The notes under the pieces are model-generated. The model was not told the DNA's origin. It saw only the letters and a list, made by a program, of their open reading frames with translations, and made no database searches. From an uncultured Caproiciproducens sp. (GTDB lineage Bacteria; Bacillota; Clostridia; Oscillospirales; Acutalibacteraceae), in assembly GCF_963664915.1 (NCBI RefSeq), contig NZ_OY761810.1, positions 2,308,661 to 2,372,660 of the forward strand: a stretch of DNA of 64,000 nt, read 5' to 3'. Of the stretch, positions 34,535-54,966 are shown piece by piece; position 1 is the stretch's first letter, and each line of letters starts with the position of its first letter. Position numbers and translations under genes: made by a program.

Positions 34535-34544
34535 CTTGAATGAC

Positions 34545-36763: not shown

Positions 36764-36884
36764 GTGCGCTTATTTTTCGTGATAAACAGGTATTGCGGGC
36801 AGATTATTGAAATATTGGTATAAATTTTGGAATATTTGACCATCATACTAACATAATATTAAACCGAAAGGCGGAGCTGTTAGT

Positions 36885-37157: not shown

Positions 37158-37159
37158 TT

Positions 37160-37423
37160 TTGCCCAATATGATTCTCGCACTTTCTTTGTGCGGAGTATT
37201 TGCGCTTCTGGTTATTATTCAGGTGATCGTCAAAGCGTCCAAACCCGTGCAGCGTGCGGCGGGTGGTGTCATCATGGGACTTTGCGCGCTTGCTGCGGTT
37301 AACCTGACCGGCTTCTTTACCGGAGTCAGCTTGCCGCTCAGTCCGCTAACCATAGGAATTTCCGGTGCAGCCGGAATTCCGGGTGTGACCATGCTGCTGC
37401 TTCTGAATCTGATTATAAAATGA
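37160..37423 (+). CDS. bofA: Pro-sigma-K processing inhibitor BofA-like
   Basis: A membrane protein of about 87 residues with three hydrophobic segments and the family pattern NLTGFFTGVSLPLSPLT then GAAGIPGVTMLLLLN. In Bacillus BofA holds the SpoIVFB protease inactive until the forespore signal arrives. GGGGGTG at 37148-37153 fits TTG 37160; GTG 37154, giving a GTGA overlap with the DUF2508 gene, is the alternative. Its stop codon lies in the terminator stem. Confidence 0.85.
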   Translation: MPNMILALSLCGVFALLVIIQVIVKASKPVQRAAGGVIMGLCALAAVNLTGFFTGVSLPLSPLTIGISGAAGIPGVTMLLLLNLIIK

Positions 37424-37471
37424 CAACAAATAAAAGGCGGGCTTTGCCCGCCTTTTATTTGTTGTCATTTT
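37417..37471. terminator. Long bidirectional terminator holding two stop codons
   Basis: A perfect 26-bp stem (37417-37442 with 37446-37471) and TTT loop. The bofA stop (37421-37423) and the stop of the opposite gene (37465-37467) are both inside it, at mirrored positions. Confidence 0.92.
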
Positions 37472-38064
37472 AATGCTGCGGTGTGATCCTTCAGGATACC
37501 TGCGGCAATTTCGCTGTTGCCGGTGACAAGCGCAAGCAGCATTCGATAAACATTTTCCGGAGACTGATGAAAATTGTCCTTCACCATATTCGCCTGATAC
37601 AGATCCGGCACATGTAAAGTAAAATTCATCAGGTCCATGTCACCTCCCGAAATATGACAGATTACATTATAACCGCGCTCGGTTTTATTAATTTCAACCA
37701 TGTTTTCGCGCTCGCGTTTTGTTCTTGCCAGCAGGTTGATGGCAGCGGCGACCGCTTTATCCCGCACGACGGGAGGAAGTGCCGTATCCAGCTGCTTTGC
37801 AATCATGCGTGCGGTGCTGCTCGCCGAGCAAAGCTCGTTTTTTTCACCGCTGACGATCACATTGCCTTTTTCAGCCAATTCCGCAAGCGCGTCGGTGACT
37901 TCAAAGTAATTGGCCAGACCGTTGGCCTGAATGATATTTAAAATATCGCTTTTTGAGAGCGGCGCATCTACGCTTGATAACAGGTAGCAAATTAAAATAC
38001 GTATTTCATTCTTGTTTCGAAGTCCGCCCGGTTCAATTCCCCCGGTAAAAGCGTCAAAATCCAT
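37465..38064 (-). CDS. DUF4364 family protein
   Basis: A 199-residue protein from ATG 38064 (GGAGG 8 bases upstream). The start resembles winged-helix proteins (NEIRILICYLLSSVDAPLSKSDILNIIQ) and the C-terminal half is beta-rich. It matches the clostridial DUF4364 family, which has a PadR/ArsR-like wing but no established role. It converges on bofA. Confidence 0.75.
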   Translation of the reverse strand: MDFDAFTGGIEPGGLRNKNEIRILICYLLSSVDAPLSKSDILNIIQANGLANYFEVTDALAELAEKGNVIVSGEKNELCSASSTARMIAKQLDTALPPVVRDKAVAAAINLLARTKRERENMVEINKTERGYNVICHISGGDMDLMNFTLHVPDLYQANMVKDNFHQSPENVYRMLLALVTGNSEIAAGILKDHTAALK

Positions 38065-38100
38065 AAACAGCACCTCCAGCAGATATTTTTATTCTACACA

Positions 38101-38150
38101 AAAAAGCCAAAGCAAACACGCTCCTCAATTGCCGGAGCAGGCTTGTCTTT
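38101..38150 (-). terminator. Terminator downstream of the XRE gene
   Basis: An imperfect stem around GCTCC / GGAGC with extended arms, then GGCTTTTTT on the minus strand. Confidence 0.6.
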
Positions 38151-38218
38151 GACTTAAACGTGTATTATTATTTTAACACACAACACAATTTCTTTCAATC
38201 ATAATTTCTGACTAGAAA

Positions 38219-38608
38219 TTATTTTTTTATAGTGTCTTTTAGATGGTTTATTATTTTTTCCTGCTCCTCAGGGTCGCAGGCGCGAAAGATACCGACGAGA
38301 ACTCTTTCATTGCTGGAAAGTTCATAAATATGGCTCGTATTTTTTTTACTGTAAATAAAGTTGGATTTTCCGCCGCTGTCAGTTACCGCTTCGGGTGTCC
38401 CTTCATCGGCAAGTAAATCATTTATTGCAATATTAAAGACCTTGGCAAGGATCATCAACACAGTTATATCGGGGGTTGTTTTGCCAATTTCATAGTATGA
38501 ATAGGTTGAACGGTCAATATTTAATATTTTTGCAATTTGAACCTGCGTATAGCCACTTTTTACACGAAGTTCACGAAGTCTTTCGTTTATATGAATCTTT
38601 TCAATAAT
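38219..38608 (-). CDS. XRE-family transcriptional regulator, apparent ATT start
   Basis: The frame reads INERLRELRVKSG, YTQVQIAKILNIDRSTYSYYE, a classic XRE helix-turn-helix, then an acidic C-terminal part. It totals about 129 residues. No ATG, GTG or TTG lies in frame before the HTH, and an in-frame TGA is only two codons before the ATT pair at 38608-38603. AAGGTGG sits 6-8 bases before this ATT, so ATT initiation is the simplest reading; a frameshift is the alternative. An ATG start at 38461 would delete the HTH. Confidence 0.75.
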   Translation of the reverse strand: MIEKIHINERLRELRVKSGYTQVQIAKILNIDRSTYSYYEIGKTTPDITVLMILAKVFNIAINDLLADEGTPEAVTDSGGKSNFIYSKKNTSHIYELSSNERVLVGIFRACDPEEQEKIINHLKDTIKK

Positions 38609-38659
38609 AGGTCACACCACCTTTACGTAAAAGTGTCAATAAATCATATTAATCAAGAT

Positions 38660-38688
38660 TATATAATTTTATAGTGACGTCACGACAA
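38660..38688 (-). promoter_or_regulatory. XRE promoter with internal palindrome
   Basis: On the minus strand, TTGTCG, a 17-base spacer and TATATA. The palindrome GTGACGTCAC (38674-38683) overlaps the -35 side and is a likely autoregulatory site. Confidence 0.5.
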
Positions 38689-38748
38689 TAACGTGATATT
38701 TATTCACTAAAAAATAATCCCGAAAGAAGAAAATTATTGCATTAGCAC

Positions 38749-38777
38749 TTGACGTTCGCTTTTTGATTTTGTATAAT
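38749..38777 (+). promoter_or_regulatory. Promoter of tRNA-Thr
   Basis: TTGACG (38749-38754), a 17-base spacer and TATAAT (38772-38777), 100 bases before the tRNA. Confidence 0.75.
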
Positions 38778-38876
38778 ATATTAGTTGGCTATAAATACAT
38801 ACCTACAGTAATAGTATGTACGTATAAAGCAATGCTATGTTAAAAAATGAAAGGTTTTATAAAATTCTTCCATCAT

Positions 38877-38951
38877 GCTACTGTGGCTCAATGGTAGAGC
38901 AGCTCATTCGTAATGAGCAGGTTGTCAGTTCGATTCTGACCAGTAGCTCCA
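38877..38951 (+). tRNA. tRNA-Thr (CGT)
   Basis: A 75-base cloverleaf with loop TTCGTAA, anticodon CGT, and encoded CCA. Its 3' 32 bases are repeated at 51306-51337. The tRNA remains complete at the left edge of the island. Confidence 0.95.
38920..38951 (+). repeat. attL-like 32-bp repeat in tRNA-Thr
   Basis: Bases from the variable loop to the CCA end of tRNA-Thr, identical to 51306-51337. This is the standard signature of integration into a tRNA 3' end. Confidence 0.88.
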
Positions 38952-38955
38952 AGAA

Positions 38956-38991
38956 AAAAAGTCTGTAAACATGCGTGTTTACAGACTTTTT
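38956..38991 (+). terminator. Terminator after tRNA-Thr inside the island edge
   Basis: A 16-bp perfect stem (38956-38971 with 38976-38991) ending in T5. It came with the island; the tRNA's presumed original terminator is at 51339-51368. Confidence 0.9.
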
Positions 38992-39063
38992 GCTGTATCT
39001 CTTAAATGTAATGATACAACAAGAGGGGTACTGTTTGATCCTACTTCTCGTCAGAGAAAACAA

Positions 39064-39154
39064 GCGCAAATATGCCCCACAAAAGGCATTAAGGAAGAAT
39101 AAAAGGGAAGTGTACAAACTCAACGAGAAAAGCCGTTGTGGGGCATTTGTGCGC
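39064..39154. repeat. 19-bp imperfect inverted repeat near the left end
   Basis: Arms 39064-39082 and 39136-39154 centre on ATGCCCCACAA / TTGTGGGGCAT, with few mismatches outside. No ORF is evident in 38992-39249. The arms could be recombinase arm-type sites. Confidence 0.5.
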
Positions 39155-39249
39155 CTTACAGGTGATTAGAAAGGGTCAAGTCTTGCTGCGGGGTGACAAA
39201 AGCTCCCCGAAATGAATATCAGGGAGCTTTCCTGCGAAAACGGCGTCAC

Positions 39250-39659
39250 TTATCTGTAGTAGTTTTTCATCTGCTGAAGTAGGCCTTTTAAAATTTTCCG
39301 TTTCCTGTGGCCGACTGCCGAAGCAGACATCTGTAGCTGCTGAGCCAACTGATTTTTTGTCTTTTCCTCGAAAAAGATACCATAGATGATTTTTTGTTCC
39401 TCTGCACTTAGCTTGTCCAAACAGCGGTGAAGATAGTTTAGCTGTTCTGCTTTCAGCACTTCGTGCTCAACAGGGGTTGAGCTGTCTACGCAGAGGAATT
39501 CTATGAATACGCCCGCTTCGATGAATTGCTCTAAAGAATGTTCGTATTTGGCAGCTTTATTTTTCAGATACCTCTCGTGTTCGTATTCTTGATAATATGC
39601 TTTGTAGACCTCATAGGTGACAGGTGTTCTTTTCCCTTTTACAATCAGTATTCTTTCAT
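39250..39659 (-). pseudogene. Sigma-70-like ICE regulator, frameshifted near its start
   Basis: GGAGG (39668-39672) and ATG 39659 begin MKEY, then stop. The frame continues one base over as LIVKGKRTPVTYEVYKAYY for about 130 codons to 39250. Its C-terminus is a sigma region 4-like HTH (KTKNQLAQQLQMSASAVGHRKRKIL). Restoring one base near TACTG would give a continuous gene of the kind common in Tn916-like conjugative elements. The 69-aa ORF from 39459 is only the intact tail. Confidence 0.65.
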
Positions 39660-40236
39660 ATACTTGTCCTCCAAATTTTCAATGAATTCAAGTGAATATT
39701 TGAAGGCTGGCGGAGAACGGCACCGTTGTTGAGGCATAAAAATAAAGGCATACAAGGGCAAAGTTAAGCTGCCCTGTATACCTTTTACGAAATCATAGTG
39801 GAGTTTAACGCGAACTGACAGCTCGCGCATATAGGCACACTTCTCTCATGAGAAGCACAGGTTTTTTTTGACAAGCTACCTGGAAAAGAAATATGTAGCA
39901 GATAGTTGTTTGCTTCATCACGCCCGACCGCTGCCAAGCAGCGGTCGCCTGAAGTTTAATGCATATCGAATGCACATATTAACACCCTCCAAACTCGTAA
40001 GTCTGGAGGGTGTTAATATCATTCGCGCATGGAAAGAGACCCACCAAACTTACGTTTTTTTTATTTGGCGGGCGTGCCTTTCTATGTTACCAAATATAAA
40101 AGAAACCTGCCGCAAAAGAGGGTAGGTTTCATACACGATACTACACGGCGGCCAGGCTATCATCATGCTTACGCATCTTAGACCCTCAGCTTTGCGTCCT
40201 TGACAATATGTGAATTTACTTGGATTGAAAAAGGCC
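39660..40236. other. Non-coding island stretch with hairpins
   Basis: No gene I can support. Visible structures are a 9-bp hairpin (39925-39933 with 39939-39947) and a 16-bp perfect hairpin (39976-39991 with 40004-40019). A plus-strand ORF at 39868-40125 crosses both and is probably chance. Confidence 0.6.
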
Positions 40237-40923
40237 TTATGAATTATATATTACACCGTCCCTTACACTTACAATCCGATTGCCGTATGCCGCCGCATCA
40301 GCGGAATGAGTTACCATAATGATGGTTTTATCACTTTCACGGTTTATTTCCTTGAGAAGCTTCATAATCTCGGTGCCGGTTTTGCTATCAAGGTTACCGG
40401 TTGGCTCATCGGCAAAAATGATATCGGGACTGTTAATCAGCGCCCTTGCTATGGCCACACGTTGCTGCTGCCCACCGGAAAGTTCTCTGGGTGTATGTTT
40501 TCTTCTATCGCTTAGCCCTACGATTTCGAGAATGTTATTAAGTTGCTTTCGATAGTCTTTCGCGTTTTTTCCATCGAGAAGAATGGGAAGTAAGATATTT
40601 TCCTCTACATTCAAATTGGGAATCAGGTTGTAAAACTGAAAGATGAAGCCGATGCTTCTGCGTCGCATGACGCTTTTTTTCTCATCATTATACCGGGAGA
40701 TATCCTTGCCACCCATCAGCACACTTCCGTTTGTGGGGCTGTCAAGACCTCCCAAAATATAGAGCAGCGTACTTTTTCCCGAACCGGACGGCCCCATAAT
40801 TGATACAAATTCGCCTTTGATGATTTGCAGTGAGATACCATTGAGCACTCTGGTAACGGTGTCACCTATTTTGAAATCTTTTATGATGTTTTCGCCTTCT
40901 ATGGCGACAGGTATTTTAGTCAT
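40237..40923 (-). CDS. ABC transporter ATP-binding protein (MacB/LolD type)
   Basis: A 228-residue ATPase with Walker A GPSGSGKS, Q-loop, signature LSGGQQQR and Walker B IIFADEPTGNLDS; the ADEPTGNLD form is typical of the MacB/BceA/LolD subfamily. It follows the 840-aa FtsX-type permease by 18 bases. The pair sits downstream of a two-component system and a serine hydrolase, as in antimicrobial-peptide or cell-envelope stress modules. Confidence 0.93.
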   Translation of the reverse strand: MTKIPVAIEGENIIKDFKIGDTVTRVLNGISLQIIKGEFVSIMGPSGSGKSTLLYILGGLDSPTNGSVLMGGKDISRYNDEKKSVMRRRSIGFIFQFYNLIPNLNVEENILLPILLDGKNAKDYRKQLNNILEIVGLSDRRKHTPRELSGGQQQRVAIARALINSPDIIFADEPTGNLDSKTGTEIMKLLKEINRESDKTIIMVTHSADAAAYGNRIVSVRDGVIYNS

Positions 40924-40941
40924 GATGCATTCTCCTTATTC

Positions 40942-43464
40942 TTATTCGAATTTAATCTCTTCCACGAGCTTCATTTTAGAGCCTTTCAAAATCGGGACAA
41001 CGGAACCAATCAGGGTGATCATGATTCCCGCAAGGCCAGCCATAATAAATATTCCTGCGTCCAACTCCGGGGTAACCGATATTTTCGGGCCGGCAACAAT
41101 AAAGATCGTTCCTATTTCCATGTATGAGACGAACATTCCGATAACCGCGCCAATAAGCCCTGATGTAAACCCTTCAATCAGCGTCATTTTTACATTCTGA
41201 CGGTTGCTCATTCCCACCGATTTGTACATGGCGATGGAGCGTTTCCTTTGAATATAGTTGATGAGCAAATTGTTGATAATTCCGACAGCCGCAAGCAACA
41301 GGATAAAATAGGTAAGCTTTCGCATTGGATCCAAAAACGAGTTAACGGTACTCATCGCATCATGGTTAAATTCATCTATTGTACGGCTCCAATTTGTTTT
41401 GTTCCCGAACAAATTGCGAATCTGTACCATAACGGCATCCGGGTCGGCTGCGGTATAGGCAAGCATATCGTAATTCTGTACACCGAATTCACTCTTTGCA
41501 TAGGCAGCCGGAATAACGGCGTCCGAATTGTCCGCTCGTGACTGAAAGCTTCCTATGATTTGGTATTCATACGTATTATCGTTATAAGTAAGACCGATGG
41601 TATCGCCAATCCTCAGATTGTGCTTTGTCAGACAATCTTTACTGAGTAAGATGTTTCGCCCACCTCCGAAGGCGGTTTCAATTTTATTCTTTGTCTGATC
41701 ATTTTCATATTTTAAATTGAGCATAGAATTATGCAGGCCGATATCATCCACGGCTTCCATTTGATTAAAGGTAAAACCGTCTGTGCTGATTTCATTATTC
41801 AGTTCATAAATAGGCAAAACGCTCTTGATTCCTTTGATATTTTTAATCTCATTTACAAATTCACTGCTCATGGTTGCCTGCGTGAAACCGTTCAGTTTAG
41901 CGCCATGGAAAACGTCGCCCACATAGGAGGAAACAAAGCTTCCGATCACACTAATTGCGATAACTGCCGACAGGCTGATGAACAACAGCGTGATATTCTG
42001 GCTCACACTTTTATTCTGTTTCATGTTCCGGGCGGCAAGCCTGCCTTCGTTGCCGAATATCAACCCGTAAACCCGCTCCAGAACATAGGAGAAAAGGTTT
42101 GTAAGCATCGGAATAATGATAATTGTTGCCGCAATCAGTCCAAGCAATGAAAAACCTCCCGCCAGCGTGAGCTGGTTTCCGGAGTTTTTATTCACAATAC
42201 GCGGAAGAATGATGGAGAGGATAAAAAGGACGGTTCCAAATACGAGTTTTGTCTTGTTAGAGATATTCTTTTCTTCTACCGTACCCAAAACGACATCCTT
42301 TACTGGGAGACGGCTTGCCCTGCAGATCGGGAGATAAGCACTTAGCATAGATACGGCAACTGCTACCGTGCAGGAAAGCAGAATGTTAAGCGGTGAAACC
42401 ACCATCGGTATTTCGATGCCCATCGACAGTGATTCCCCCAGCCCGCCCAAGAGCAGTTTCAAAATACCGTAGCCCAACGGGATGCTGAGCAGGCCTCCGG
42501 TAATTCCGTATATCAGACTTTCGAGCAACAGAATTCTAGTCGTCGTCTTCTCTGAAGCGCCAATGCTGCGAAAGGTTCCGATGACCGGAAGCCGCTCTAG
42601 CGTGATGACCTTGTAACTGCTGAAAATAATAAAAACACTCATTGTAAGGGCGAAAAAGCTGATCAGGTAAAACGGCAGAGATTTCTGTTTTGCATCCGAT
42701 GCGACTCCAGCTTCGTCATAAACCTTTGTCACATTATATTTTTCCGAAGACAGGGAAGCCGACAGTTCAGATTTCAGTTTTTCTGTACTTACTCCGTCGG
42801 ATGGCACAATCAGTATTTTTCTGTTGCCGCCGGAAGTGTTTAGAATGGAGGATAGGGTATCCTTTGGAAGCAGAGCGTTAACGCCCCTCGTGTTCCTCAG
42901 AAACACCGTGTCATAGGCGGCTACGGCGGCAAGCCTGAATTTGTATTTCGTTTCACCTATGGTAAGCGTGACGGTATCTCCCGGCTTAATCTCATATTTG
43001 GCCGTGAATTTTTCTGGAAGAACAATATTGTTTCCGGTAAAATCAGTAAGTGTGGCGCCGTTCAGCAGCCGGGGCTTATTGATGGAGTTCAGTTCATTCA
43101 GATCGGCTGCAATCAGGTCAATGTTCTCATAATAGCTGTCTTTGTTGTAGAGTGCCGATGTCGTTACAAAACCAACCTTGTTTTTTATGGAGGCAATCTG
43201 TGGTATTTTTTTTTCCGAAATCCAGACTATATTACCGTTTGCGTCCTGTTTCGCTGAAACCGATATGGTCGCTGTTCCAGCCGAGCCTTTTGCCATCTTC
43301 TGCTGGGCGCTTTCATAGGAATCCCCGATTGCCATGGAAACAAACAGCAACGTTGATGACAGAACAATAGACAGCAGCATTACGATTGTTCTTAGTTTCC
43401 GCTCTCTGATATTGTTTACAATGTACTTTAGTATGATCTTCAAATATGCACCTGCTTTCTTCAA
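40942..43464 (-). CDS. FtsX-family ABC transporter permease
   Basis: An 840-residue membrane protein. One N-terminal segment, a large extracellular domain and three segments (FtsX core) are followed by a second extracellular domain and another FtsX core, the usual duplicated permease layout. Both cores carry the RxxxIgxxRSIGAS/KSVGMS motif. It probably works with the ATPase downstream as a mechanotransmitting or lipid/peptide exporter. Substrate unknown. Confidence 0.9.
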   Translation of the reverse strand: MKKAGAYLKIILKYIVNNIRERKLRTIVMLLSIVLSSTLLFVSMAIGDSYESAQQKMAKGSAGTATISVSAKQDANGNIVWISEKKIPQIASIKNKVGFVTTSALYNKDSYYENIDLIAADLNELNSINKPRLLNGATLTDFTGNNIVLPEKFTAKYEIKPGDTVTLTIGETKYKFRLAAVAAYDTVFLRNTRGVNALLPKDTLSSILNTSGGNRKILIVPSDGVSTEKLKSELSASLSSEKYNVTKVYDEAGVASDAKQKSLPFYLISFFALTMSVFIIFSSYKVITLERLPVIGTFRSIGASEKTTTRILLLESLIYGITGGLLSIPLGYGILKLLLGGLGESLSMGIEIPMVVSPLNILLSCTVAVAVSMLSAYLPICRASRLPVKDVVLGTVEEKNISNKTKLVFGTVLFILSIILPRIVNKNSGNQLTLAGGFSLLGLIAATIIIIPMLTNLFSYVLERVYGLIFGNEGRLAARNMKQNKSVSQNITLLFISLSAVIAISVIGSFVSSYVGDVFHGAKLNGFTQATMSSEFVNEIKNIKGIKSVLPIYELNNEISTDGFTFNQMEAVDDIGLHNSMLNLKYENDQTKNKIETAFGGGRNILLSKDCLTKHNLRIGDTIGLTYNDNTYEYQIIGSFQSRADNSDAVIPAAYAKSEFGVQNYDMLAYTAADPDAVMVQIRNLFGNKTNWSRTIDEFNHDAMSTVNSFLDPMRKLTYFILLLAAVGIINNLLINYIQRKRSIAMYKSVGMSNRQNVKMTLIEGFTSGLIGAVIGMFVSYMEIGTIFIVAGPKISVTPELDAGIFIMAGLAGIMITLIGSVVPILKGSKMKLVEEIKFE

Positions 43465-43566
43465 TCAAAAAGATTGATAACTTATGTTAAAACTATAAGC
43501 CATCAACCTTTTTTTATCTTAAAGCCAGTCTTAATTTACCTTGCCGGACATGCAGATGTTTCATGT

Positions 43567-45447
43567 TCAGAATTTCATTCCATTCATAAGATACATAAAT
43601 ACAATATTGGGAATAAAGAGCGAAGTCAGTATTGATAATGCTATTTTTAATTTTAAGTCGGTTTCATTCTTGATCCAGACAAGTCCAACAAGAACTGTTG
43701 AAACAATTGCAATTCCCGCGCATGACCAGCAAACGATGGGGATCGTCGGCTGGATTGCATGAAAGACAAGGGATGTATCTCCGATCAAATACAGCAAGGC
43801 TGCAAGAGCATTGAGTGAAAAGTAGGAAATGATCAAAATTGCTTCCGACATGAGCGTTATTTTTACAGCCCGGTTTAGTCCTGTATCCCGCTTTCTATTT
43901 TTTATGAGTGAAATCAAAAGGATCAGAGCAAACACCGCAAATAGTGGCTGGGAGATCATCGACAGAATCAAGAGTGACCATAGGGCAGTAGGAATCTTAA
44001 AGAAATCAAAACCTAATATGCTTATGGCCTGTTTGCCGCCAATGTCAGAGAATCTGCAATAATTTCCGTTTTCTTTACAGTAAAACATCCCGTTGCCGAT
44101 GTAATAGAAATCCCAATTAAAATCACTGCTTGAAAAGTTCAGGTTTCCGTCATGATCGCATTTGACTTTACATGTTATCATGACTGATTTGGTCTTCAAA
44201 AAATCGGTGTCCCCGTATTCCGAATAGGAATACCTGCCGCTGATTGCATTTGCGTCCATATCAAAAGGAACAGCGGCGATATTGGAAACTCCTTGGGGCC
44301 GGTTGCCTGAAAGAAGCTTATAAACCATATCAATGTATTCATTGCATACTTTTCCGCTGCCCGCTGAGTCCGTATTGATCGCAATGAATATACCGACATT
44401 CTTTTCCTTCAGAAGAGAGACCTTTGAAGAAAAGCAAGGCAGATGACCTCCAAATTCGATCGTTTTGTAACCGCCTCGGACTGATTCATAAAACCCAAGG
44501 GTAAAGCCTGCCAGTCTGCCGTCTTCCGGGTACTGATGCGTATGCATCCGGGCGGCTGTATCGGAGTTCAGAATTCGTTTCCCATTGAATTCTCCGTTGT
44601 TCAGATGAGCAAGCATGAAATTTGCCATGTCCGAAGCTGAAGCGCAGATTGAACCAGCCGGATGGTCGCTAAGCAGCGTGTACTTCCGCTCAAAGTACTG
44701 CCCGAATAGGCTCAGATACGGTTTCGCCATGGACGGGAGTAAGGACTTTGTAAGCCCATAAGAAGAATGGTTCATTTCGAGCGGCTCCAGTATGTTTTTG
44801 GTAATGTACCGGTCGAGCGGTTCCCCCGAAGCAATTTCAACCAGATAACCAGCCAGTGAGATACCGTAGCCGTTATATTGGCAAAAGGTCCCCGGTTTCC
44901 GGATAACGGGCGGCAAGTTTTCCTTCAAATCGCTTTCAAGTGTTTTCATTGAATCGGAAAGAACGTCTCCCGAACTTGGAACAAGCAGCGGAATTCGGAA
45001 ATCAAGACCCGACGTATGGGTCAACAGAGTTCTTAAAGTAACAGGTGAAGAAAACGGATTGTTAACTTTAAAAGTCGTCAGATAGCTGTTTACATCCTTA
45101 TCCAATGAAAGCTTACCCTTTTCTACCATCTGCATGACGGCTGTCGCGGTAAACACCTTCGAAACAGATGCGATCTGAAACGATGTACTCTCAACATCTA
45201 CGGGAACCTTGCTTTCCAAATCTGCATAGCCATATCCTTTTTCAAGAAGGACTTTCCCATCTTTTACAACGGATACTGCCGCTCCGGCCACATGGTCATC
45301 GGGAAGAGTCTTTTTAAGATATTCGTCCGTCATTTTTTCGAGGCTTTGAGCGATGCTAACGCTTCTCACTGCTTGTGCCGGGGAGGTTATGCTGAAAAGC
45401 AAAACAGAGCATACCGCAGCACAAATAATTTTCTTGAATATTCTCAA
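43567..45447 (-). CDS. Secreted/membrane serine hydrolase (beta-lactamase/PBP4* type)
   Basis: 626 residues from TTG 45447 (AAGGAG 8 bases upstream). A signal peptide (about 1-26, ending SPAQA) leads into a class C beta-lactamase-like domain with S94-V-S-K97 (SxxK). The second motif position reads YNG where YSN is common. The C-terminal 170 residues hold four membrane segments. Likely a D-amino-acid peptidase or esterase at the cell surface; actual beta-lactam resistance cannot be inferred. Confidence 0.85.
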   Translation of the reverse strand: MRIFKKIICAAVCSVLLFSITSPAQAVRSVSIAQSLEKMTDEYLKKTLPDDHVAGAAVSVVKDGKVLLEKGYGYADLESKVPVDVESTSFQIASVSKVFTATAVMQMVEKGKLSLDKDVNSYLTTFKVNNPFSSPVTLRTLLTHTSGLDFRIPLLVPSSGDVLSDSMKTLESDLKENLPPVIRKPGTFCQYNGYGISLAGYLVEIASGEPLDRYITKNILEPLEMNHSSYGLTKSLLPSMAKPYLSLFGQYFERKYTLLSDHPAGSICASASDMANFMLAHLNNGEFNGKRILNSDTAARMHTHQYPEDGRLAGFTLGFYESVRGGYKTIEFGGHLPCFSSKVSLLKEKNVGIFIAINTDSAGSGKVCNEYIDMVYKLLSGNRPQGVSNIAAVPFDMDANAISGRYSYSEYGDTDFLKTKSVMITCKVKCDHDGNLNFSSSDFNWDFYYIGNGMFYCKENGNYCRFSDIGGKQAISILGFDFFKIPTALWSLLILSMISQPLFAVFALILLISLIKNRKRDTGLNRAVKITLMSEAILIISYFSLNALAALLYLIGDTSLVFHAIQPTIPIVCWSCAGIAIVSTVLVGLVWIKNETDLKLKIALSILTSLFIPNIVFMYLMNGMKF

Positions 45448-45474
45448 TATCAGTTCTCCTTCCGGCCATTGCAT

Positions 45475-45515
45475 AAAAAAGGTTGCAGGCCCACTTCAAT
45501 AGTAGACCTGCAACC
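45475..45515 (-). terminator. Terminator after the histidine kinase gene
   Basis: GGTTGCAGG (45481-45489) pairs with CCTGCAACC (45507-45515), followed on the minus strand by T6. Confidence 0.8.
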
Positions 45516-45548
45516 TTAATTCACTGTCCTATGAATCTTAATTTATCC

Positions 45549-46955
45549 TTAATTCTGTTTTGCGAACTCAATGGTGATGCATGTACCGGAGCCGGGCTCG
45601 CTTTCCGCCAAAATGCTCCCTCCGTGCAGCGCGATAATCTGTTTGGCAATTGCCATTCCCAAACCAGAACCCTCCGGTTTTTCCGCTGAATTTTCTCCCC
45701 GGTAATACCGGACGAACAAATTGTCCAGTTCTTCCTTTTTCATTCCGCAGCCATCATCCTGTACGCTGATTTTAATGCGGTCACCAGACCTGATGAAAAC
45801 GGAAATCTCCGTTTCCCTATCGTTATGCACCAGAGCGTTGGTAATCAAATTATTTAGTGCTCGCTTTAAGAGCACCGCGTCAAATGTAAGCTCAATCGTA
45901 TCATCCGTGCTGAAAAAAGAGATATTTCTGTCTTCGTATTCCGGATTGTTGAGCAAATCAATCACCAGCTCTTTTGTAAAGCGTACAATATTCTGCCTGC
46001 TCTTATGCAGCGGAAGCATTTCATTTTTCAACTGATAGGTGAGCTTTAAATCGTTGATAAGCGCCTCAGCATAAGCGGTATTCTTCAATATGATGCCGCC
46101 GTATTCTTTGATAACGTCAACCTCTGGATGAGAATCAGTATCGGAAATGAGTTCGGCATAACCCCTGATGGGCGATAAAGGAGTTTTCAGATCATGAGTG
46201 ATATTGGCGATCCACTCCTCGCGCAGCTTTTCATCCTTGGCTCTTGCCTCATCACTCGATCTTATCTCCGCGTTCATGGCATTCAGTTCCTCGTAAATAT
46301 CGCCAAACGAGCCGTTGTTCGAAACGGGTATATAGGTGCGTGAAACAATTCCCCTGATCGATTTTCGGATATGTTTTGTTTGCTTCGCGACTAAGAAACT
46401 GTATATAAAGCCTGCTATGACTAAAAGAAGCAGCGTAACTCCAAGCATTACAAACACAACTGGCTTGAAGGTTGTAAATCTGTCCCCGCTTACATACATG
46501 GTAACTTTGGAAATCTGCACGGGAAAACCGATCATATACGTCCACTCTTTATCGCCCAAATGAAGATTCGCCGAAAACACGGAATCCTTTCCGATTCCGT
46601 TCTGATAGATATTCAGTATAGCCGAAGGAGAATAATGCGACGGAACACCTTGTGGCTTATCAAAGCATTGAATTTCATTTCCGTTAGCATCAATGATTTG
46701 AAGCCACAGGTCGTTTTCCTGCAACAGTTTCAGACCTGATTGCTTGATTTGGGGCACATCGCCGGTAAAAATGATATACTCGGAAAAATCCTTTGTGAAA
46801 TCAATCGGCCATTTGCTGAATTCAACATGACCGTCCGGCTTTTGTATGGTTATATTATAAACGACCATGCCGACCCCCGCCGCTAGCGTTCCAATAAGCA
46901 AAATAAAGAAAATAACGTAAATATGGAATGCCGACTTATATCCTGACCGTTTCAT
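45549..46955 (-). CDS. Sensor histidine kinase
   Basis: 468 residues. Membrane segments at about 12-34 and 165-190 enclose an extracellular sensing domain of about 130 residues. A HAMP-like linker, HisKA with His254 (THDLKTPLSPIRGY) and HATPase with N-box NNLITNALVH and G-boxes DDGCGM and GSGLGMAIAK follow. It starts directly after the response-regulator stop. Probably senses a cell-envelope signal for the transporter and hydrolase downstream. Confidence 0.95.
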   Translation of the reverse strand: MKRSGYKSAFHIYVIFFILLIGTLAAGVGMVVYNITIQKPDGHVEFSKWPIDFTKDFSEYIIFTGDVPQIKQSGLKLLQENDLWLQIIDANGNEIQCFDKPQGVPSHYSPSAILNIYQNGIGKDSVFSANLHLGDKEWTYMIGFPVQISKVTMYVSGDRFTTFKPVVFVMLGVTLLLLVIAGFIYSFLVAKQTKHIRKSIRGIVSRTYIPVSNNGSFGDIYEELNAMNAEIRSSDEARAKDEKLREEWIANITHDLKTPLSPIRGYAELISDTDSHPEVDVIKEYGGIILKNTAYAEALINDLKLTYQLKNEMLPLHKSRQNIVRFTKELVIDLLNNPEYEDRNISFFSTDDTIELTFDAVLLKRALNNLITNALVHNDRETEISVFIRSGDRIKISVQDDGCGMKKEELDNLFVRYYRGENSAEKPEGSGLGMAIAKQIIALHGGSILAESEPGSGTCITIEFAKQN

Positions 46956-47693
46956 TTAGTTATCCCTTTTCACAAGTCTGTATCCAAGTCCCTTTACTGT
47001 TTGAAGCAGTTTGGGATTTGTCGGATTATCCTCTATCTTTTCTCGGATATGATGAATATGAACCATAACGGTATTGTCGCAGCCGACGCTGTCCTCTCCC
47101 CAGACCTGCTCGTATAGGCGCTCTTTGCTGATGATCTTGTTTGGATTTTCGGCAAGGTAGCGAAGCACTCCGAATTCTCTTGCAGTAAACTCAAGCTCAA
47201 TGTCGTTTTTATATACACGGCAGCCGTCAATGTCGATTCTCAAGTTGCTTAAAAGTATCTGCTGTTTTACGTTATTTTTATCTGAGCAATCATATTGCTG
47301 CCTGCGCAGCTGTGCCTTTATCCGAAACACTATCTCTCTCGGGCTGAAAGGCTTCGTTATATAATCATCGCCGCCGCTGCTTAAGCCCAATATTTTGTCT
47401 ATATCATCGTTTTTGGAAGACAGAAACATGATCGGACAATATGAAAATTCCCGAATTTTCTTACATACCTCTATTCCGTCAATATCTGGAAGCATGATGT
47501 CCAAAACAATTGCATCCGGCCGATGCATTTTGCATAAATAGATAGCTTCCTGCCCACTCGAGGCTTTAAGAATATTTTTGAATCCATCCTTTTTAAGCAC
47601 TTTCTCAAGCAAGTCGCCTATATCCTTTTCGTCATCTACAATCAGAATTTTTTTTTCAAGCAAACTTCCATAGATTGCATTTTGTCCAAGCAT
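46956..47693 (-). CDS. OmpR-family response regulator
   Basis: 245 residues from ATG 47693, 7 bases after GGAGGT. Receiver domain with D20, D21 and phosphoacceptor D65 (IVLDIMLPD), then a winged-helix domain ending VKGLGYRLVKRDN. The open frame extends upstream through the preceding gene, but the ribosome binding site fixes the start. Partner of the kinase encoded next. Confidence 0.95.
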   Translation of the reverse strand: MLGQNAIYGSLLEKKILIVDDEKDIGDLLEKVLKKDGFKNILKASSGQEAIYLCKMHRPDAIVLDIMLPDIDGIEVCKKIREFSYCPIMFLSSKNDDIDKILGLSSGGDDYITKPFSPREIVFRIKAQLRRQQYDCSDKNNVKQQILLSNLRIDIDGCRVYKNDIELEFTAREFGVLRYLAENPNKIISKERLYEQVWGEDSVGCDNTVMVHIHHIREKIEDNPTNPKLLQTVKGLGYRLVKRDN

Positions 47694-47707
47694 TCTATTC
47701 ACCTCCA

Positions 47708-47893
47708 TTAGATCTTCCTTATGTTTTCCTTCAGCCTTCCATCCGTAGGCTTTGGCGTGTCTTTGGGAATTGCCCATGCATGTGCAAAACGAATAGCCCC
47801 GTCAATTCTGTTTTCTTCACACAGCTTTTGTATTCTGCGTTCTGAAATGCCCCATTTTTTGGCCGCCTGTTTTACAGAAATGTAGTCCAACAT
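47708..47893 (-). CDS. Small helix-turn-helix DNA-binding protein (excisionase-like)
   Basis: 61 residues, YISVKQAAKKWGISERRIQKLCEENRIDGA and onward: a MerR/excisionase-type winged helix found widely beside Firmicute two-component genes. A GGAGGG site precedes ATG 47893. It is the first gene of the leftward operon and lies 14 bases before the response-regulator start. It could regulate the operon or be an excision factor; context favours the former. Confidence 0.8.
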   Translation of the reverse strand: MLDYISVKQAAKKWGISERRIQKLCEENRIDGAIRFAHAWAIPKDTPKPTDGRLKENIRKI

Positions 47894-48064
47894 ATGCGCC
47901 CTCCACTAGATGCTTTTATTTGATTATATACGGAAAAACGAATAAAATCAATAGAATAAATCTTAACTTTATATGTTGTGTAGCCTTTCACTTTTTCCTA
48001 AAGAGAAGTGAGGGGCATTTTTTATGCCTTCTCTTTCTCGTTCGAAAGGAGTGTGTTCGTAAAT

Positions 48065-48421
48065 ATGAAACAAGGAAACTTTTTTGTCGTACAAAATCAG
48101 ATTTTCGATTTAAAAATGTCACCGATTGTTTTTTATGTGTACTGCTATCTCTGCAAATGCAGAAACAAAAAGAGCGGATGTTACCCAAGCAAGCAGACCA
48201 TCGCATCAGCCTGCGGGATTGCAGTCAGTTCTGTCAGCAAAGCAATCAAACAGCTTTCCGATACAAGACTTATTATTGTTACAAAAAACTTCAGAGGCGG
48301 AAAGCAAATCAATAATTCCTATGAGATTACCGGTTTATCTGCCTGCCAGTCGGATGCCCCCATAGGTCATGGTGGTCTATGCCCCGTCTTGCAAACGGAT
48401 AGGAGTAAACAAGAAGAATAA
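48065..48421 (+). CDS. Helix-turn-helix protein of the ICE/plasmid replication type
   Basis: 118 residues from ATG 48065. NFFVVQNQIFDLKMSPIVFYVY then SKQTIASACGIAVSSVSKAIKQL is a winged-helix arrangement common in conjugative-element and phage replication initiators of Clostridia. AAGGAG lies about 13 bases upstream, slightly far. It diverges from the two-component operon. A frame from 48008 exists but has no ribosome binding site. Confidence 0.7.
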   Translation: MKQGNFFVVQNQIFDLKMSPIVFYVYCYLCKCRNKKSGCYPSKQTIASACGIAVSSVSKAIKQLSDTRLIIVTKNFRGGKQINNSYEITGLSACQSDAPIGHGGLCPVLQTDRSKQEE

Positions 48422-48517
48422 TAACTTCCCAATAACAACAATCTTTATCAACAGAGAAAGAAAATATATAGGGGTATATCTGTAAAAACAGCAGGGTTGA
48501 AAATGGTGCAGGTTAAA

Positions 48518-48633
48518 GGAGTTATGCTGCTTAGGCAGCATAACTCCCGGAAACGCCCACCGGCAAAGCCGTTGGGGGATTTGAAAGTGACATAACTTTT
48601 TGTCCGGTACCGCAAATTGTTATGTCAGATTTT
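48518..48633 (+). other. Three consecutive stem-loops in a non-coding stretch
   Basis: A 13-bp perfect hairpin (48518-48530 with 48535-48547), a 9-bp hairpin with wobble (about 48557-48577), and a 9-bp hairpin (48588-48596 with 48619-48627) ending in T5. The rest of 48422-48701 holds no gene. The last stem could be a terminator; the first two have no T-run. Confidence 0.6.
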
Positions 48634-48701
48634 TAAGAAATGGCGGTAATCAGCCACTTTTGTTCCTCTGTTTTTGTATACCGCTATGAAAGGAGCACAT
48701 T

Positions 48702-48908
48702 ATGCCATTTTTATGTAAGGGAGATTTCAGTGTGCATTCCAAAACAATTAATGGAGTTCAATATGTTACCTTCAGCTTTTTTGAGGGAGAAAATACGATT
48801 TTTGATAAGGTCGGAAACCTTATTACGCATTCCTGTGAAGCAACCGAAGAGGTCAAGATTACGTCCGAATCTTTAGTGGATAATGGTATAGCTATCAAAG
48901 AGGATTGA
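48702..48908 (+). CDS. Small hypothetical island protein (68 aa)
   Basis: Starts MPFLCKGDFSVHSKTINGVQ behind AAGGAG (48689-48694). It appears to be a small beta-rich domain of the type carried by conjugative elements; function unknown. The same frame continues open for 39 codons after its TGA stop, so this may be the front part of a longer gene. Confidence 0.6.
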   Translation: MPFLCKGDFSVHSKTINGVQYVTFSFFEGENTIFDKVGNLITHSCEATEEVKITSESLVDNGIAIKED

Positions 48909-49028
48909 TGGTATCCTGTCGTGCTAAAGGATGTGCGACTATGGCACAGACAAGCACAGGCTGATATGGACACTCACGAATTCACCTTGCCGGTAAATCC
49001 TGAGCAAGGCTACAGGGATAAAAAATAA
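48909..49028 (+). pseudogene. In-frame continuation after the TGA of the 68-aa gene
   Basis: Directly after TGA 48906-48908 the frame reads WYPVVLKDVRLWHRQAQADM and goes on to TAA 49026-49028 with no other stop. It has no start signals of its own. It is either the tail of a gene cut by a nonsense change or chance. Confidence 0.3.
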
Positions 49029-49062
49029 AGCCGAACCTTCGCTAAAAGGCTCGGCTTTACAT
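49027..49062 (+). terminator. Terminator
   Basis: Stem AAAGCCGA-CCTT / AAGGCTCGGCTTT (one mismatch) with T-poor tail, so moderate. Confidence 0.5.
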
Positions 49063-49186
49063 GTATTTTAACATGATACATTCGGCTATTCCACAGCGCG
49101 AAGGGAACAAAATACGAGAGTATCATCCCTTGAATTCGCCCAAAAGTTAAACAATATTTGAATTAAGTAGCCATAAGAGCTTATGA

Positions 49187-49360
49187 ATCAGGCTGAATAC
49201 CTACAGTCGCATTGAAGAATTTCTGCTGATTATCTCGAAGTATACTCATATAACCGAGCTGATTGAACGGATCGTGGTTTATGAAAAGATGTTGAACGAG
49301 GATGGTAGCAAAAGCCAGTGGGTGAATATTTACTGTAAATTTGTGGGGTGTGTAGGCTAA
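49187..49360 (+). pseudogene. C-terminal remnant of a large serine recombinase
   Basis: From a stop at 49184-49186 the frame reads IRLNTYSRIEEFLL, then KYTHITELIERIVVYEKMLN and ends VNIYCKFVGCVG. This has the pattern of the C-terminal end (DUF4368-like) of Tn4451/TndX-type recombinases. The catalytic N-terminus is gone. The surrounding 49063-49186 and 49361-49495 hold no gene. Confidence 0.6.
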
Positions 49361-49495
49361 TCAAAGATAGCAGTAGAAAAAAAGAATTTATAAAGTAAGG
49401 GGATAGGATATTAATATAGTGTTTGATCAGAAAGATGCTACTGTAATTACTTTGGCATTTTTTTATTATGATCTGGCATATTTTATATATTAGTG

Positions 49496-49524
49496 TTGCG
49501 TTAGAATAAAAAATTTGTTATTAT
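49496..49524 (+). promoter_or_regulatory. Predicted promoter of the 393-aa gene
   Basis: TTGCGT (49496-49501), a 17-base spacer and TATTAT (49519-49524). A CTTGCA/TGCAAG hairpin lies in the leader near 49553-49567. Confidence 0.55.
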
Positions 49525-49632
49525 GTAAAAAATGGATGCTAATCTTGCAATTCTATATGCAAGATTAGGTTCGGTTCTGTTATGATTACTTTTTTAGCAT
49601 ATAGAACAACTATCGCGATGTGGAGGTGCATA

Positions 49633-50814
49633 ATGGATACGAATAACGAAATAATTCAATCGTTTGCTGATGCATTTAGTTTGCCTATTATTAACGATGA
49701 AACTCGTGTTTGGTTCTTCCGAACGCAATCGGGTTTATATTATTATGATTTTTATCTCAATAATTATATTGCTCTTGGCTGGGACTTAATTTCAAAAAGT
49801 CTGATTACTGATGATCAGATAGACAGCCAATCAAAGAAAGAGCGGATATCGAAATTATATCCTGATGAGCAACGTCCGGGGCTGATCTTCGGGCAAATGG
49901 ATACTTTTTACACAAAAATGCAGACAGGCGATTTAGTTGTCATCCCCTCTGGTGGGGGACGAGAGATTTCTATAGGAACGTTGGGGGATATATGCTTATC
50001 GGTAATTCATGGTGTAAGTGACAATGAGTATGAAGAGTGTACATATAAACACAAAAGAAAGGTGTCTTGGTTAAAAAGGGTTGATTTGTCGACTGATGTA
50101 TACCTTTCCAAAGTTTTGAGAGCACAGCAGACTATTTCAGACATCAGCGAGTACGCTGAAATGGTCTATAGAAATTTGCATCCTTGCTATATTTCGGAAG
50201 ATAGTCTTCATCTTATGTTACAAAAAAGAACATCCGCTGATTTCAGTATTACAGATAATATTTCATTGCAGCATTCTATTGTTCAAATAAATTACATATT
50301 ATCTGAGTACTTTGGTATTCAAAGTGAGTGTGAAAAAATAAAAATAAAGACGGCGGTTGGCTCTCCAGGGTTTTTAGAAATTTTGCTGCCTAGCATACCG
50401 GTTTCTACAATCGCAGTAGCATGTATATTTAAAACACTTGTTGGAAAGACAAAAAACAGCAACGGCGAGATGGCTACAGGAATTATGGCAATCATTTCTA
50501 AAGGTAATGACTTGTGGAATGACCATTGGAATCGCAAAAAAGTCAAAGCAGAGATTGAACAGATAGAGGCAATTACCAAAAGAACCCATGCTGAAACTGC
50601 ACAAATTGAAGCAAATATTCGAAAGTCAGATGCTGAAACACTTGCAATTTGCTCAACCACTAAGCAAACAAAAGCTCAGATCGAAACGGCTCTTGTTACA
50701 GAAGATAAGGATCAACTGGTGGTAGCAGAAGTAATCCGGAACTGTGAGGTATTGAAAACCGCTGCTGAACATAGTGGCATCCGGATCGATAAAAAGCTTG
50801 AGAATGTTAGTTGA
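49633..50814 (+). CDS. Unrecognised protein: EVE/PUA-like N-terminus, hydrophobic segment, coiled-coil tail
   Basis: 393 residues from ATG 49633 (GGAGGT 5 bases upstream). Residues about 22-120 resemble the EVE/PUA-like N-terminal module of Mrr-type restriction proteins: VWFFRTQSG, YIALGWD, then GDLVVIPSGGG and ISIGTLGD. A hydrophobic stretch (ILLPSIPVSTIAVACIF) lies near 265-285. A charged Ala/Glu/Gln/Ile-rich heptad region follows to about residue 370. No nuclease motif is visible. Low G+C and a place beside the right repeat mark it as island cargo. A defence role is inference only. Confidence 0.7.
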   Translation: MDTNNEIIQSFADAFSLPIINDETRVWFFRTQSGLYYYDFYLNNYIALGWDLISKSLITDDQIDSQSKKERISKLYPDEQRPGLIFGQMDTFYTKMQTGDLVVIPSGGGREISIGTLGDICLSVIHGVSDNEYEECTYKHKRKVSWLKRVDLSTDVYLSKVLRAQQTISDISEYAEMVYRNLHPCYISEDSLHLMLQKRTSADFSITDNISLQHSIVQINYILSEYFGIQSECEKIKIKTAVGSPGFLEILLPSIPVSTIAVACIFKTLVGKTKNSNGEMATGIMAIISKGNDLWNDHWNRKKVKAEIEQIEAITKRTHAETAQIEANIRKSDAETLAICSTTKQTKAQIETALVTEDKDQLVVAEVIRNCEVLKTAAEHSGIRIDKKLENVS

Positions 50815-51027
50815 TAGTTATCACATGTCAATAACCGCCTCCCGTGAAGTTGAAAATCAGGTTTTGGTTAACGGTTGAACTTTGTTCCTTGAAAACACGA
50901 AATAAGAGAATAATGAATGTTTAAGCGCTATTTTGAGGCTAGAGATACGAGTTTGAAAAGGCCAATGTAGTTGAGAAAAGACATTAAACATATTGGACTT
51001 TTCCTTGCCTGTTTAACTAGAATGCCA

Positions 51028-51056
51028 TTGTGACTTATTGGTAATAGTTGTATAAT
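51028..51056 (+). promoter_or_regulatory. Predicted promoter of a 43-aa ORF
   Basis: TTGTGA (51028-51033), a 17-base spacer and TATAAT (51051-51056), 34 bases before the ATG. Confidence 0.55.
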
Positions 51057-51089
51057 AATTCATATAGATTGATTAGGAGAATGTATACC

Positions 51090-51221
51090 ATGATTATGTC
51101 CTTAAGTGTGAAAAATCAAAGGATTGAAACGTCTGATATCACAAAAGACAGAGAATCTTCTCGTCTGCTAAACTTAACCCAGATGCCGAGGTTGAACGAA
51201 GGATGGACATTTTTTGTGTAA
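51090..51221 (+). CDS. Small hypothetical protein (43 aa)
   Basis: MIMSLSVKNQRIETSDITKD and onward, behind AGGAG (51076-51080) and a good promoter. No family recognised. It lies between the 393-aa gene and the right repeat. It could be a remnant, since no similar short gene is known to me. Bases 50815-51027 hold nothing I can identify. Confidence 0.4.
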   Translation: MIMSLSVKNQRIETSDITKDRESSRLLNLTQMPRLNEGWTFFV

Positions 51222-51305
51222 TGCCCTGAAAAGTAGAGTTGCACTTTAGATCTATGATTCAGAGCCGCTTCATTGCTAAATTGTTCCCACTTACCAACAA
51301 CAAGC

Positions 51306-51337
51306 GGTTGTCAGTTCGATTCTGACCAGTAGCTCCA
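51306..51337 (+). repeat. attR-like 32-bp repeat
   Basis: Identical to the tRNA-Thr 3' end at 38920-38951. The preceding bases do not continue the tRNA, so this is only the 3' portion. Confidence 0.88.
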
Positions 51338-51338
51338 G

Positions 51339-51368
51339 GCTCCTGCTGAATGTAGCAGGAGTTTTTTT
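51339..51368 (+). terminator. Displaced terminator of tRNA-Thr
   Basis: CTCCTGCT / AGCAGGAG stem with T7, two bases after the repeat. It makes sense as the original tRNA terminator before the island inserted. Confidence 0.85.
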
Positions 51369-51375
51369 ATATAAA

Positions 51376-51414
51376 AATCCCCCTGTGTACAGATTCTGTG
51401 CATACAGGGGGATT
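51376..51414 (-). terminator. Terminator of the chemoreceptor gene
   Basis: An 11-bp perfect stem (AATCCCCCTGT / ACAGGGGGATT) followed by T-rich sequence on the minus strand. Confidence 0.85.
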
Positions 51415-51453
51415 GGTGATGTTTGGAATGATTTAACAGCTGTTTAATTACTG

Positions 51454-53214
51454 TTAATATTTGTTTCCGGCAGTATTCCGTTCCGGCGCTTTTTCTTCCG
51501 TTGGTGCATGGTACCCTACTGGGCTCTGATAATCTTGATCTTTCAGCCTGAATTTCTGTACCAGGGTTTTCAGGGTCTGTGCCTGTCCTGAAAGCTCCTC
51601 GCTCGCTGCGGCGCTTTGTTCCGCAGTCGCGGAATTGTTCTGTATTACATTTGAAATCTGATCGACTCCAAGTGTGATCTGTCCAATCGCATCCGATTGT
51701 GCGGTGGAAGCTTTCGAAATGTGTTCCACTGTTTCGGTAACAACATTCGCGCTCTTTACTACGCGAAGAAGTGATTTTGCAGTTTCGGCAGCAATTCTTG
51801 TACCATTTTCAACTTGTTTCACCGAATTTTCAATTAATGCGGTAGTGTTTTTAGCCGCTTCTGCGCTTTTGCTTGCTAGATTTCTGACTTCGTCTGCAAC
51901 TACGGCAAAGCCCTTTCCTGCCGCTCCCGCTCGGGCTGCTTCAACGGCCGCATTCAGTGCTAGAATATTTGTCTGGAAAGCGATATCTTCAATTGTCTTA
52001 ATGATTTTTCCAATCTGACTTGAAGAATCGTTGATTTGCGTCATTGCGCTAAGCATTTCTTCCATATATTTATTGCTGACGTCAATCTCGGAACTAACCA
52101 AGGTGACATTTTTGCTCGCGTTTACAGCATTGGTGGCGTTATCCTTCACCTGTGCAGATATTTCAGTGATTGAAGCGGAAAGTTCCTCAATGGAGCTTGC
52201 CTGCTCTGTTGCACCCTGTGCAAGCGACTGTGCACCGTCTGAAACCTGCTCAGAACCGGATGCAACTTGCTCCGAAGCCTGATTGATCTGAGTCATGGTG
52301 TCGTTTAAGAACACAATAATACCCGACAATGAATCTTTCAAATCAGCATAATCGCCAATATAATCTAATTCGGAATTCACGTTTAAGTTGCCGTGCTCCA
52401 CCTCACCGAGATTCTTTGCGATATCCGCTATGTAAGCCCTTATGGATGCGGTTGATTTTGCGAAAGCTTCACCGAGTTCCCCAATCTCATTTTTGGAGTC
52501 AACATTGATTTCCACGTTCAGGTCACCCGCCGCCATTCTTTTTGCGGCTCGAGACATTTCCTTTACAGGTTTGCTGATAGACCTCGAAATCTTTAGGGCA
52601 ATGCCAAGGGAGAAAAGAAAGGCGATGACAATGACGGCAATAATGGAGAACATTGAAATGGTTGTCTCAGTGGAAAGATTTTTAGACATTTCGTTGCCTG
52701 TTGCTGTTTTTAAATCCAGCAGTGAGTCAATGGAAGTGCTGATCTTTTCCAGTATGGCTGTTCCCTCTGTTATTAACAGTGTCTGAGCTTCGGAGTTTTT
52801 ATTTTGCTCTGCTAGTGTGATGACACGGTCTTTCAGATTTTTGTAAGCGGACATGTTTTCGACAATCGTATTATAATAGCCCTTTTCCTTATCATTTGAG
52901 ATTGTTTTCTGTACGACTGCCAGATCTTGATCTATGTTTGCAATGGATTTATCCAGCTTATCAGCAGCACTTTTCATCTTATCGCCATCGGTGTAAATAA
53001 TAATGTCCCGAATAACTGCACGGCTGTTATTGAATTCTGCACTTAAACGACCCACATCACCTTGCGCAAAGCCATAATTCGACAAGGCTGCGTTATAATT
53101 TGTTCCGATACTCATCATTACGCACAGTCCGACAATTCCGCCTATACTGGAGATAAGCGTTACCGTCAAAAAAGCAATCATTAAGATTTTACCGATTTTC
53201 ATGTTTTTAATCAT
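51454..53214 (-). CDS. Methyl-accepting chemotaxis protein
   Basis: 586 residues. Membrane segments at about 10-33 and 185-208 enclose a four-helix-bundle ligand domain; HAMP and the long signalling coiled coil follow. The hairpin tip is near-canonical ([43 protein letters not shown]). AAGGAG is 9 bases before ATG 53214. No che genes are nearby, so it feeds a chemotaxis system encoded elsewhere. Outside the island. Confidence 0.96.
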
Positions 53215-53227
53215 TTTTACATTCTCC

Positions 53228-54891: not shown

Positions 54892-54966
54892 TAAGTTCGA
54901 TTTGTGACTATGAATGTCCCTGTTTCTATGATATAATAAATCAATATCATAGATGGGGGCATTATT

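Follow-up and report, generated by a model that had tools for sequence, protein, structure and literature searches.

A CIME-like island at tRNA-Thr(CGT) of an uncultured Caproiciproducens, probably a decayed mobile element that has lost its integrase

Cis-mobilizable elements (CIMEs) of streptococci have kept their attachment repeats while their recombination and conjugation genes are gone, and classical CIMEs are 1.2-13 kb long (PMC7563491). Islands in tRNA genes, as described for Islander, carry the regenerated tRNA at one end and the displaced 3' fragment at the other (PMC4383910), and in Pseudomonas aeruginosa core defence hotspots were described, one of them beside ssrA, in which Shango was tested (PMC10250203). 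In this study a 64,000-nucleotide stretch of an uncultured Caproiciproducens sp. genome (contig NZ_OY761810.1, positions 2,308,661 to 2,372,660; hereafter the window) was analyzed, in which exact copies of the 3' end of tRNA-Thr(CGT) enclose a 12.4-kb segment. We regard it as highly probable that this segment is a decayed mobile element that was site-specifically integrated at tRNA-Thr(CGT), most likely by a tyrosine integrase that has since been lost, and that now represents a CIME-like island. Structures of this general type are well known, and the island is an ordinary representative.

Like CIMEs, the island keeps attachment repeats and cargo without recombination or conjugation genes, and its size lies within the range given above; unlike those CIMEs (PMC7563491), it is solitary rather than in tandem with an integrative and conjugative element (ICE), and no parent ICE or integrative and mobilizable element (IME) with its ends was found. 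Also in contrast to CIMEs, the gene at its right end suggests a phage or satellite no less than an ICE. As in the Islander islands, intact tRNA and displaced 3' fragment lie at opposite ends and an empty site occurs in relatives, but the island contains no integrase gene (PMC4383910). With temperate phages and phage satellites it shares the family of this 395-410-aa right-end gene, reading toward the integrase end; unlike in these, no integrase, repressor, capsid or packaging genes were recognised in the island. A fixed site beside a non-coding RNA gene whose cargo changes, including Shango-type genes in the related strain YR-4, resembles the P. aeruginosa hotspots, but only two occupied sites were found and the cargo in the window is no tested defence system (PMC10250203). 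The island may descend from an ICE or IME or from a phage or satellite.

The ends of the island are defined by the following features:

38877..38951, plus strand: tRNA-Thr(CGT), intact, CCA encoded, 75 bases (ARAGORN, Rfam)
38920..38951, plus strand: left 32-bp direct repeat, predicted attachment core, equal to tRNA positions 44-75 (sequence match)
38952..38994, plus strand: putative element-side left arm with a perfect 16-bp hairpin (comparison with YR-4)
51297..51316, plus strand: putative element-side right arm plus the first 11 bp of the core (comparison with YR-4)
51306..51337, plus strand: right 32-bp repeat, the probable displaced 3' end of the original tRNA gene (repeat match; native flank comparison)

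By direct comparison, 38920-38951 and 51306-51337 were identical over 32 bp, exactly as reported in the initial annotation, and the terminator that it had placed right behind the right copy was found by a consensus scan at 51337-51364. The pair represents the only two copies in the 3.13-Mb genome when up to 2 mismatches are allowed. At a tolerance of 3 mismatches the window still contained these two matches alone, whereas 100 dinucleotide-shuffled versions of it contained none; the pair was also the sole origin of repeated 28-mers. A perfect 16-bp hairpin is also present behind the left copy (38956-38991); it was not called a terminator by the consensus scan, its T-run being located inside the stem. 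The tRNA gene itself is 100% identical to a tRNA gene in seven other genomes (G001, G002, G003, G007, G008, G010 and G037). G+C content is 41.7% in the island (38952-51305), 45.8% in 30000-38876 and 43.7% in 51338-60000. An imperfect inverted repeat of ~19 bp was noted by eye near the left end (arms ~39064-39082 and ~39136-39155).

The tRNA gene was searched in 60 genomes including the window's own, 53 of which gave a match, and the locus was read in 20-kb stretches of seven same-genus genomes and on a 6.5-kb contig of an eighth, ten same-genus genomes being listed. Six of these eight (G001, G002, G003, G004, G008 and G010) harbor the empty site for which the initial annotation had proposed to look in relatives: a short spacer directly behind the tRNA leads into the flank that the window has right of 51338. 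In G003 and G008 the chemotaxis-receptor gene of this flank comes after the spacer, and in the other four the spacer leads to a homologue of the next gene, 53605-54891, by eye a hydrogenase-like iron-sulfur protein. When the window flanks were joined by script, the arrangement of G008 and G003 was obtained, and the flank past the right copy is orthologous to the post-tRNA flank of these two genomes. The earlier statement that the content of the island is absent from the usual neighbourhood thus held in six of eight same-genus genomes; the site of G007 (strain YR-4) is occupied by a different insert, and G006, excluded from the empty-site count, shows a different neighbourhood (butyrate-pathway-like genes) on its 6.5-kb contig. 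Weak partial tRNA matches in G005 and G009 lay outside the loci read, and the more distant tRNA loci of G012, G023, G024 and G037 share no flanks and were not counted. The combination of the genus name with 'genomic island' gave no literature match. The chemotaxis-receptor gene right of the island (51454-53214) is itself variable, being present once in G008 and as two tandem copies in G003, and absent next to the tRNA in G001, G002, G004 and G010.

The second occupied site, in strain YR-4 (locus L033), holds an insert of ~8.6 kb at the same tRNA-Thr. Its main features are:

L033 10631-11842: large serine recombinase adjoining the tRNA (PF00239, PF07508)
L033 12131-18556: Shango-type operon (PADLOC: SngA 8e-21, SngB 2.5e-141, SngC 2.9e-180)

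The left arm of the island (38957-38994) is identical to the YR-4 left arm at 33 of 38 positions, i.e. there are 5 mismatches in the 38 bp after the left copy, as compared to 14-17 at best against the six empty relatives. Since this stretch is YR-4-like and the right copy runs into native flank, the element probably brought the left copy and displaced the original one. At the other end, 51297-51316 is identical to L033 18688-18707 at 19 of 20 positions, and the six relatives show 6-7 mismatches at best. As a control, 247 other 20-mers of the island were compared to the YR-4 insert, and 2 matched at 3 mismatches or fewer. In YR-4 the right boundary comprises the right arm with 11 bp from the start of the core, indicating that the right repeat is present there in shortened form. 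In addition, an internal stretch (48956-49093) is 82% identical to L033 11825-11956 over 138 columns. Scanning of 300 family genomes, including the window's own, detected the right-arm pattern exactly in the window genome and YR-4 alone; the pattern was built from these two, so that the scan tests its uniqueness and not its discovery. Three further matches with 2 mismatches were as many as the three control matches and were taken as chance. With its empty sites, the locus documents a tRNA-Thr(CGT) insertion hotspot in Caproiciproducens, filled by a sensor-exporter operon in the window and by Shango-type genes in YR-4.

Two features at the right end of the island bear on the missing integrase:

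49582..50814, plus strand: 395-410-aa protein of a phage/satellite integrase-neighbour family, PADLOC candidate PDC-S02 (phrog_10226 3e-51; PDLC04806 1.7e-13)
50815..51305, no strand: gap of 491 bp in which phage synteny predicts an integrase gene, without similarity to 12 phage integrases

A relative of the 395-410-aa gene was found in 17 phage records, some of them duplicate entries, and 11 were opened. In all 11 an integrase is encoded 287-1284 bp downstream on the same strand, with at most two small same-strand genes in between, and each of the nine neighbouring integrases that were scanned is of the tyrosine type (PF00589). None of the 11 phage integrases showed similarity anywhere in the island (best E 0.32), and neither did a twelfth, from Microbacterium phage vB_MoxS-R1 (E 6.8). 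Because the phage relatives have their integrase at this position, the integrase of the island was probably deleted from the 491-bp gap. The right-end gene and the ends shared with YR-4, on whose contig PF00589 likewise had no match, hint at loss of an integrase over its original absence. Judged from its family membership, the phage-borne 395-410-aa gene may be an accessory gene that acts against phages. For the 395-aa protein, no confirmed relative was found in viral contigs and no solved relative (best E 0.086), and single-sequence folding gave no usable model (mean pLDDT 40).

Further remnants of mobility genes are located near both ends:

39253..39678, minus strand: sigma-70 region-4-like gene, 142 codons stop to stop (PF04545 5.7e-7; phrog_13787 1.3e-15)
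48062..48421, plus strand: HTH_36 / phage-plasmid replication-initiator-like protein (PF13730 5.3e-13; phrog_270 1.7e-13; NF046008 ICE protein family 0.00043, below cut-off)
48690..49028, plus strand: small reading frame with internal stop (open frame; partial similarity to YR-4)
49187..49360, plus strand: C-terminal remnant of a large serine recombinase, DUF4368, 57 codons (PF14287 4.2e-9)

The initial annotation had described decayed mobile genes at both ends, and these were recovered through short or weak family matches; its proposal of an integration followed by loss of the integrase is likewise supported, as a probable course of events. In the sigma-like gene the probable start codon is, by eye, out of frame with the remainder. 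The frame at 48690..49028 matched no Pfam, NCBIfam or PHROG family, and the DUF4368 remnant was recovered again by a search from the genome side. The sigma-like, HTH_36 and DUF4368 remnants do not diagnose an origin from an ICE or IME, and the phage-like content of the island is limited to the phrog_10226-type gene and the small replication-initiator-like and excisionase-like genes. No match to PF00589 was obtained within the island, the nearest one lying ~97 kb away. For relaxases, PF03432 matched nothing in the island (nearest ~130 kb), other relaxase families were not profile-searched, and the seven main frames were assigned otherwise or to no such family. The VirB4-type AAA_10 domain (PF12846) had no match in the whole genome.

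These observations are consistent with the following course. A mobile element that bore its own copy of the final 32 bp of tRNA-Thr(CGT) would have integrated site-specifically in that gene, most likely by means of a tyrosine integrase. The copy brought by the element would have completed the tRNA and become the left repeat, followed by a hairpin that likewise came with the element. The original 3' end would have been pushed 12.4 kb to the right to form the right repeat. Subsequently, the integrase gene would have been deleted, probably from between the 395-410-aa gene and the right repeat, and the other mobility genes would have decayed, leaving an island flanked by attachment (att) sites. 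As expected for a CIME, both predicted attachment sites are retained and both arms recur in YR-4, and of recombination genes nothing is left intact, the 57-codon serine-recombinase remnant being the sole trace. Such an island should no longer be able to excise by itself; an integrase acting at the same site might still move it.

The parent element was searched for with the 32-mer. In contigs of the GTDB collection 31 stretches were found with one copy each and no contig twice, so that no intact parent with an integrase and these ends was detected there, and viral contigs and plasmids gave no match. Among phages the 32-mer matched two records of one Microbacterium phage at 28 of 32 positions. 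In this phage, vB_MoxS-R1 (L143), region 1-1447 comprises a tRNA-Thr(CGT)-like 3' part, a hairpin and, 118 bp further on, a tyrosine integrase; the start of the record is likely an attachment site in a tRNA-Thr gene of another phylum. Since its integrase matches nothing in the island, this phage was rejected as the parent and serves as a precedent for the site and as an example of how such an incoming end may be built. Shorter words gave 4 (22-mers) and 15 (23-mers) matches in viral contigs, all 19 of which lie within complete tRNA genes, and none of the 11 phage integrases matched in the stretches around them. The two ends of the island provide a concrete probe for the missing parent.

Several results weigh against integration by a tyrosine integrase that was later lost. 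Besides the unsuccessful search for a parent in GTDB contigs, viral contigs and plasmids, PF00589 was not detected on the contig of tRNA-Thr(CGT) in 15 of 17 genomes, some contigs being short, and in the two single-contig genomes the nearest match lies ~97 and 125 kb from the tRNA. Several of the 11 opened phages are closely related, and among five bacterial loci of the 395-410-aa family that were read, one has a tyrosine recombinase nearby, which there faces the gene. The shuffled-alignment score of the two right ends is weak, being reached by 23 of 2000 shuffles; the fixed-length 20-mer control is the stronger of the two tests. Finally, the island retains a single recombinase remnant, and this belongs to the serine type. 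Together with the large serine recombinase next to the tRNA in the YR-4 insert, the remnant speaks for integration of the element by a large serine recombinase of the family of the 49187-49360 remnant. The repeats left by serine integrases, however, are very short in most cases, the remnant is located 1.9 kb inward from the right end, and the scanned integrase neighbours in phages, as well as the integrase of the tRNA-Thr 3'-end phage, are of the tyrosine type. A repeat that ends exactly at the tRNA 3' end moreover follows the pattern of tyrosine integrases in tRNA genes, as given in the Islander description (PMC4383910), and we consider integration by a serine recombinase very unlikely. An origin of the right copy as a leftover of segmental duplication or illegitimate recombination, which would make it no attachment site at all, is extremely improbable: a precedent is seen in G024, which has tandem partial copies of the tRNA-Thr 3' part, but no other stretch of at least 28 bp is repeated in the window, the right copy precedes native flank, both outer ends in YR-4 show element-side sequence resembling that of the island, and the empty sites already disfavour a duplication. 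The G024 locus (L045, 8752-9146) consists of a tRNA-Thr gene and two tandem partial 3' copies 162-163 bp apart, possibly attachment remnants or a tRNA array.

Site-specific integration followed by integrase loss is compatible with more than one history of the two occupied sites. A single insertion in the common ancestor of the window species and YR-4, followed by loss in other lineages and by refilling with different cargo, would account for the same ends in the same tRNA and for the internal stretch of 82% identity, a value that comes near the level of left-flank divergence (73-77%). The closer relatives of the window, however, are empty (G008, left-flank identity ~84%; G002, G003 and G010, ~80-81%), so that a single ancestral insertion needs several clean losses, and fewer steps suffice if related elements were inserted twice independently; the ancestral insertion is therefore rather doubtful. 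It is also conceivable, although we think it unlikely, that the two islands share a minimal frame of left arm, right arm and tRNA 3' end without a tyrosine integrase, loaded with different cargo, which would act as a non-autonomous cassette frame that persists through an integrase supplied in trans or because its shared ends recombine.

The cargo of the island is encoded on the minus strand in the order helix-turn-helix (HTH) protein, response regulator, histidine kinase, serine hydrolase, FtsX/MacB-type permease and ATPase, followed by a riboswitch:

47711..47905, minus strand: small excisionase-like helix-turn-helix protein (phrog_2655 excisionase 7.8e-9; TIGR01764 0.002, below cut-off)
46956..47777, minus strand: OmpR-type response regulator (PF00072, PF00486)
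45549..46955, minus strand: sensor histidine kinase (PF00512, PF02518)
43567..45474, minus strand: serine hydrolase, beta-lactamase-like family (PF00144 3.2e-58)
40942..43464, minus strand: FtsX/MacB-type ABC permease, 840 aa (PF02687, PF12704)
40237..40923, minus strand: ABC transporter ATPase, MacB/LolD type (PF00005 3.7e-37)
40144..40246, minus strand: c-di-GMP-I riboswitch aptamer (RF01051, 44.7 bits, gathering 35)

Based on the domain content, the probable target of the two-component system is a MacB-type ABC exporter accompanied by a serine hydrolase, which would serve in export of, or envelope-stress defence against, an antimicrobial. The serine hydrolase scored far under the cut-off of every beta-lactamase model listed, and resistance is not claimed. 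The permease is present in 28 of 391 genomes of the class, the window's own included (E 1e-60), and in 0 of 97 other relatives (E 1e-30). Six loci with a related permease were fetched: four from genomes of the same class, representing three families, and two from genomes of the same family. Kinase, permease and ATPase are clustered in all six and the regulator in five; the serine hydrolase, which in the island stands between the kinase and permease genes, is found in none of these operons. The nearest of the six is G204, of another family, with identities of 78% for the ATPase, 65% for the permease, 58% for the kinase and 70% for the regulator. For the same-family genomes G258 and G374, the respective values are 72/72, 58/58, 49/47 and 63/65%. 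That the operon is nearer to the other-family genome than to those of its own family suggests its horizontal acquisition.

The c-di-GMP-I riboswitch follows the ATPase gene immediately; no intact gene was recognised downstream of the aptamer, and the riboswitch was detected in none of the six related operon loci. At the opposite end of the operon, the small HTH gene is 72% identical over 154 bases to a gene adjoining bcrR in an enterococcal plasmid.

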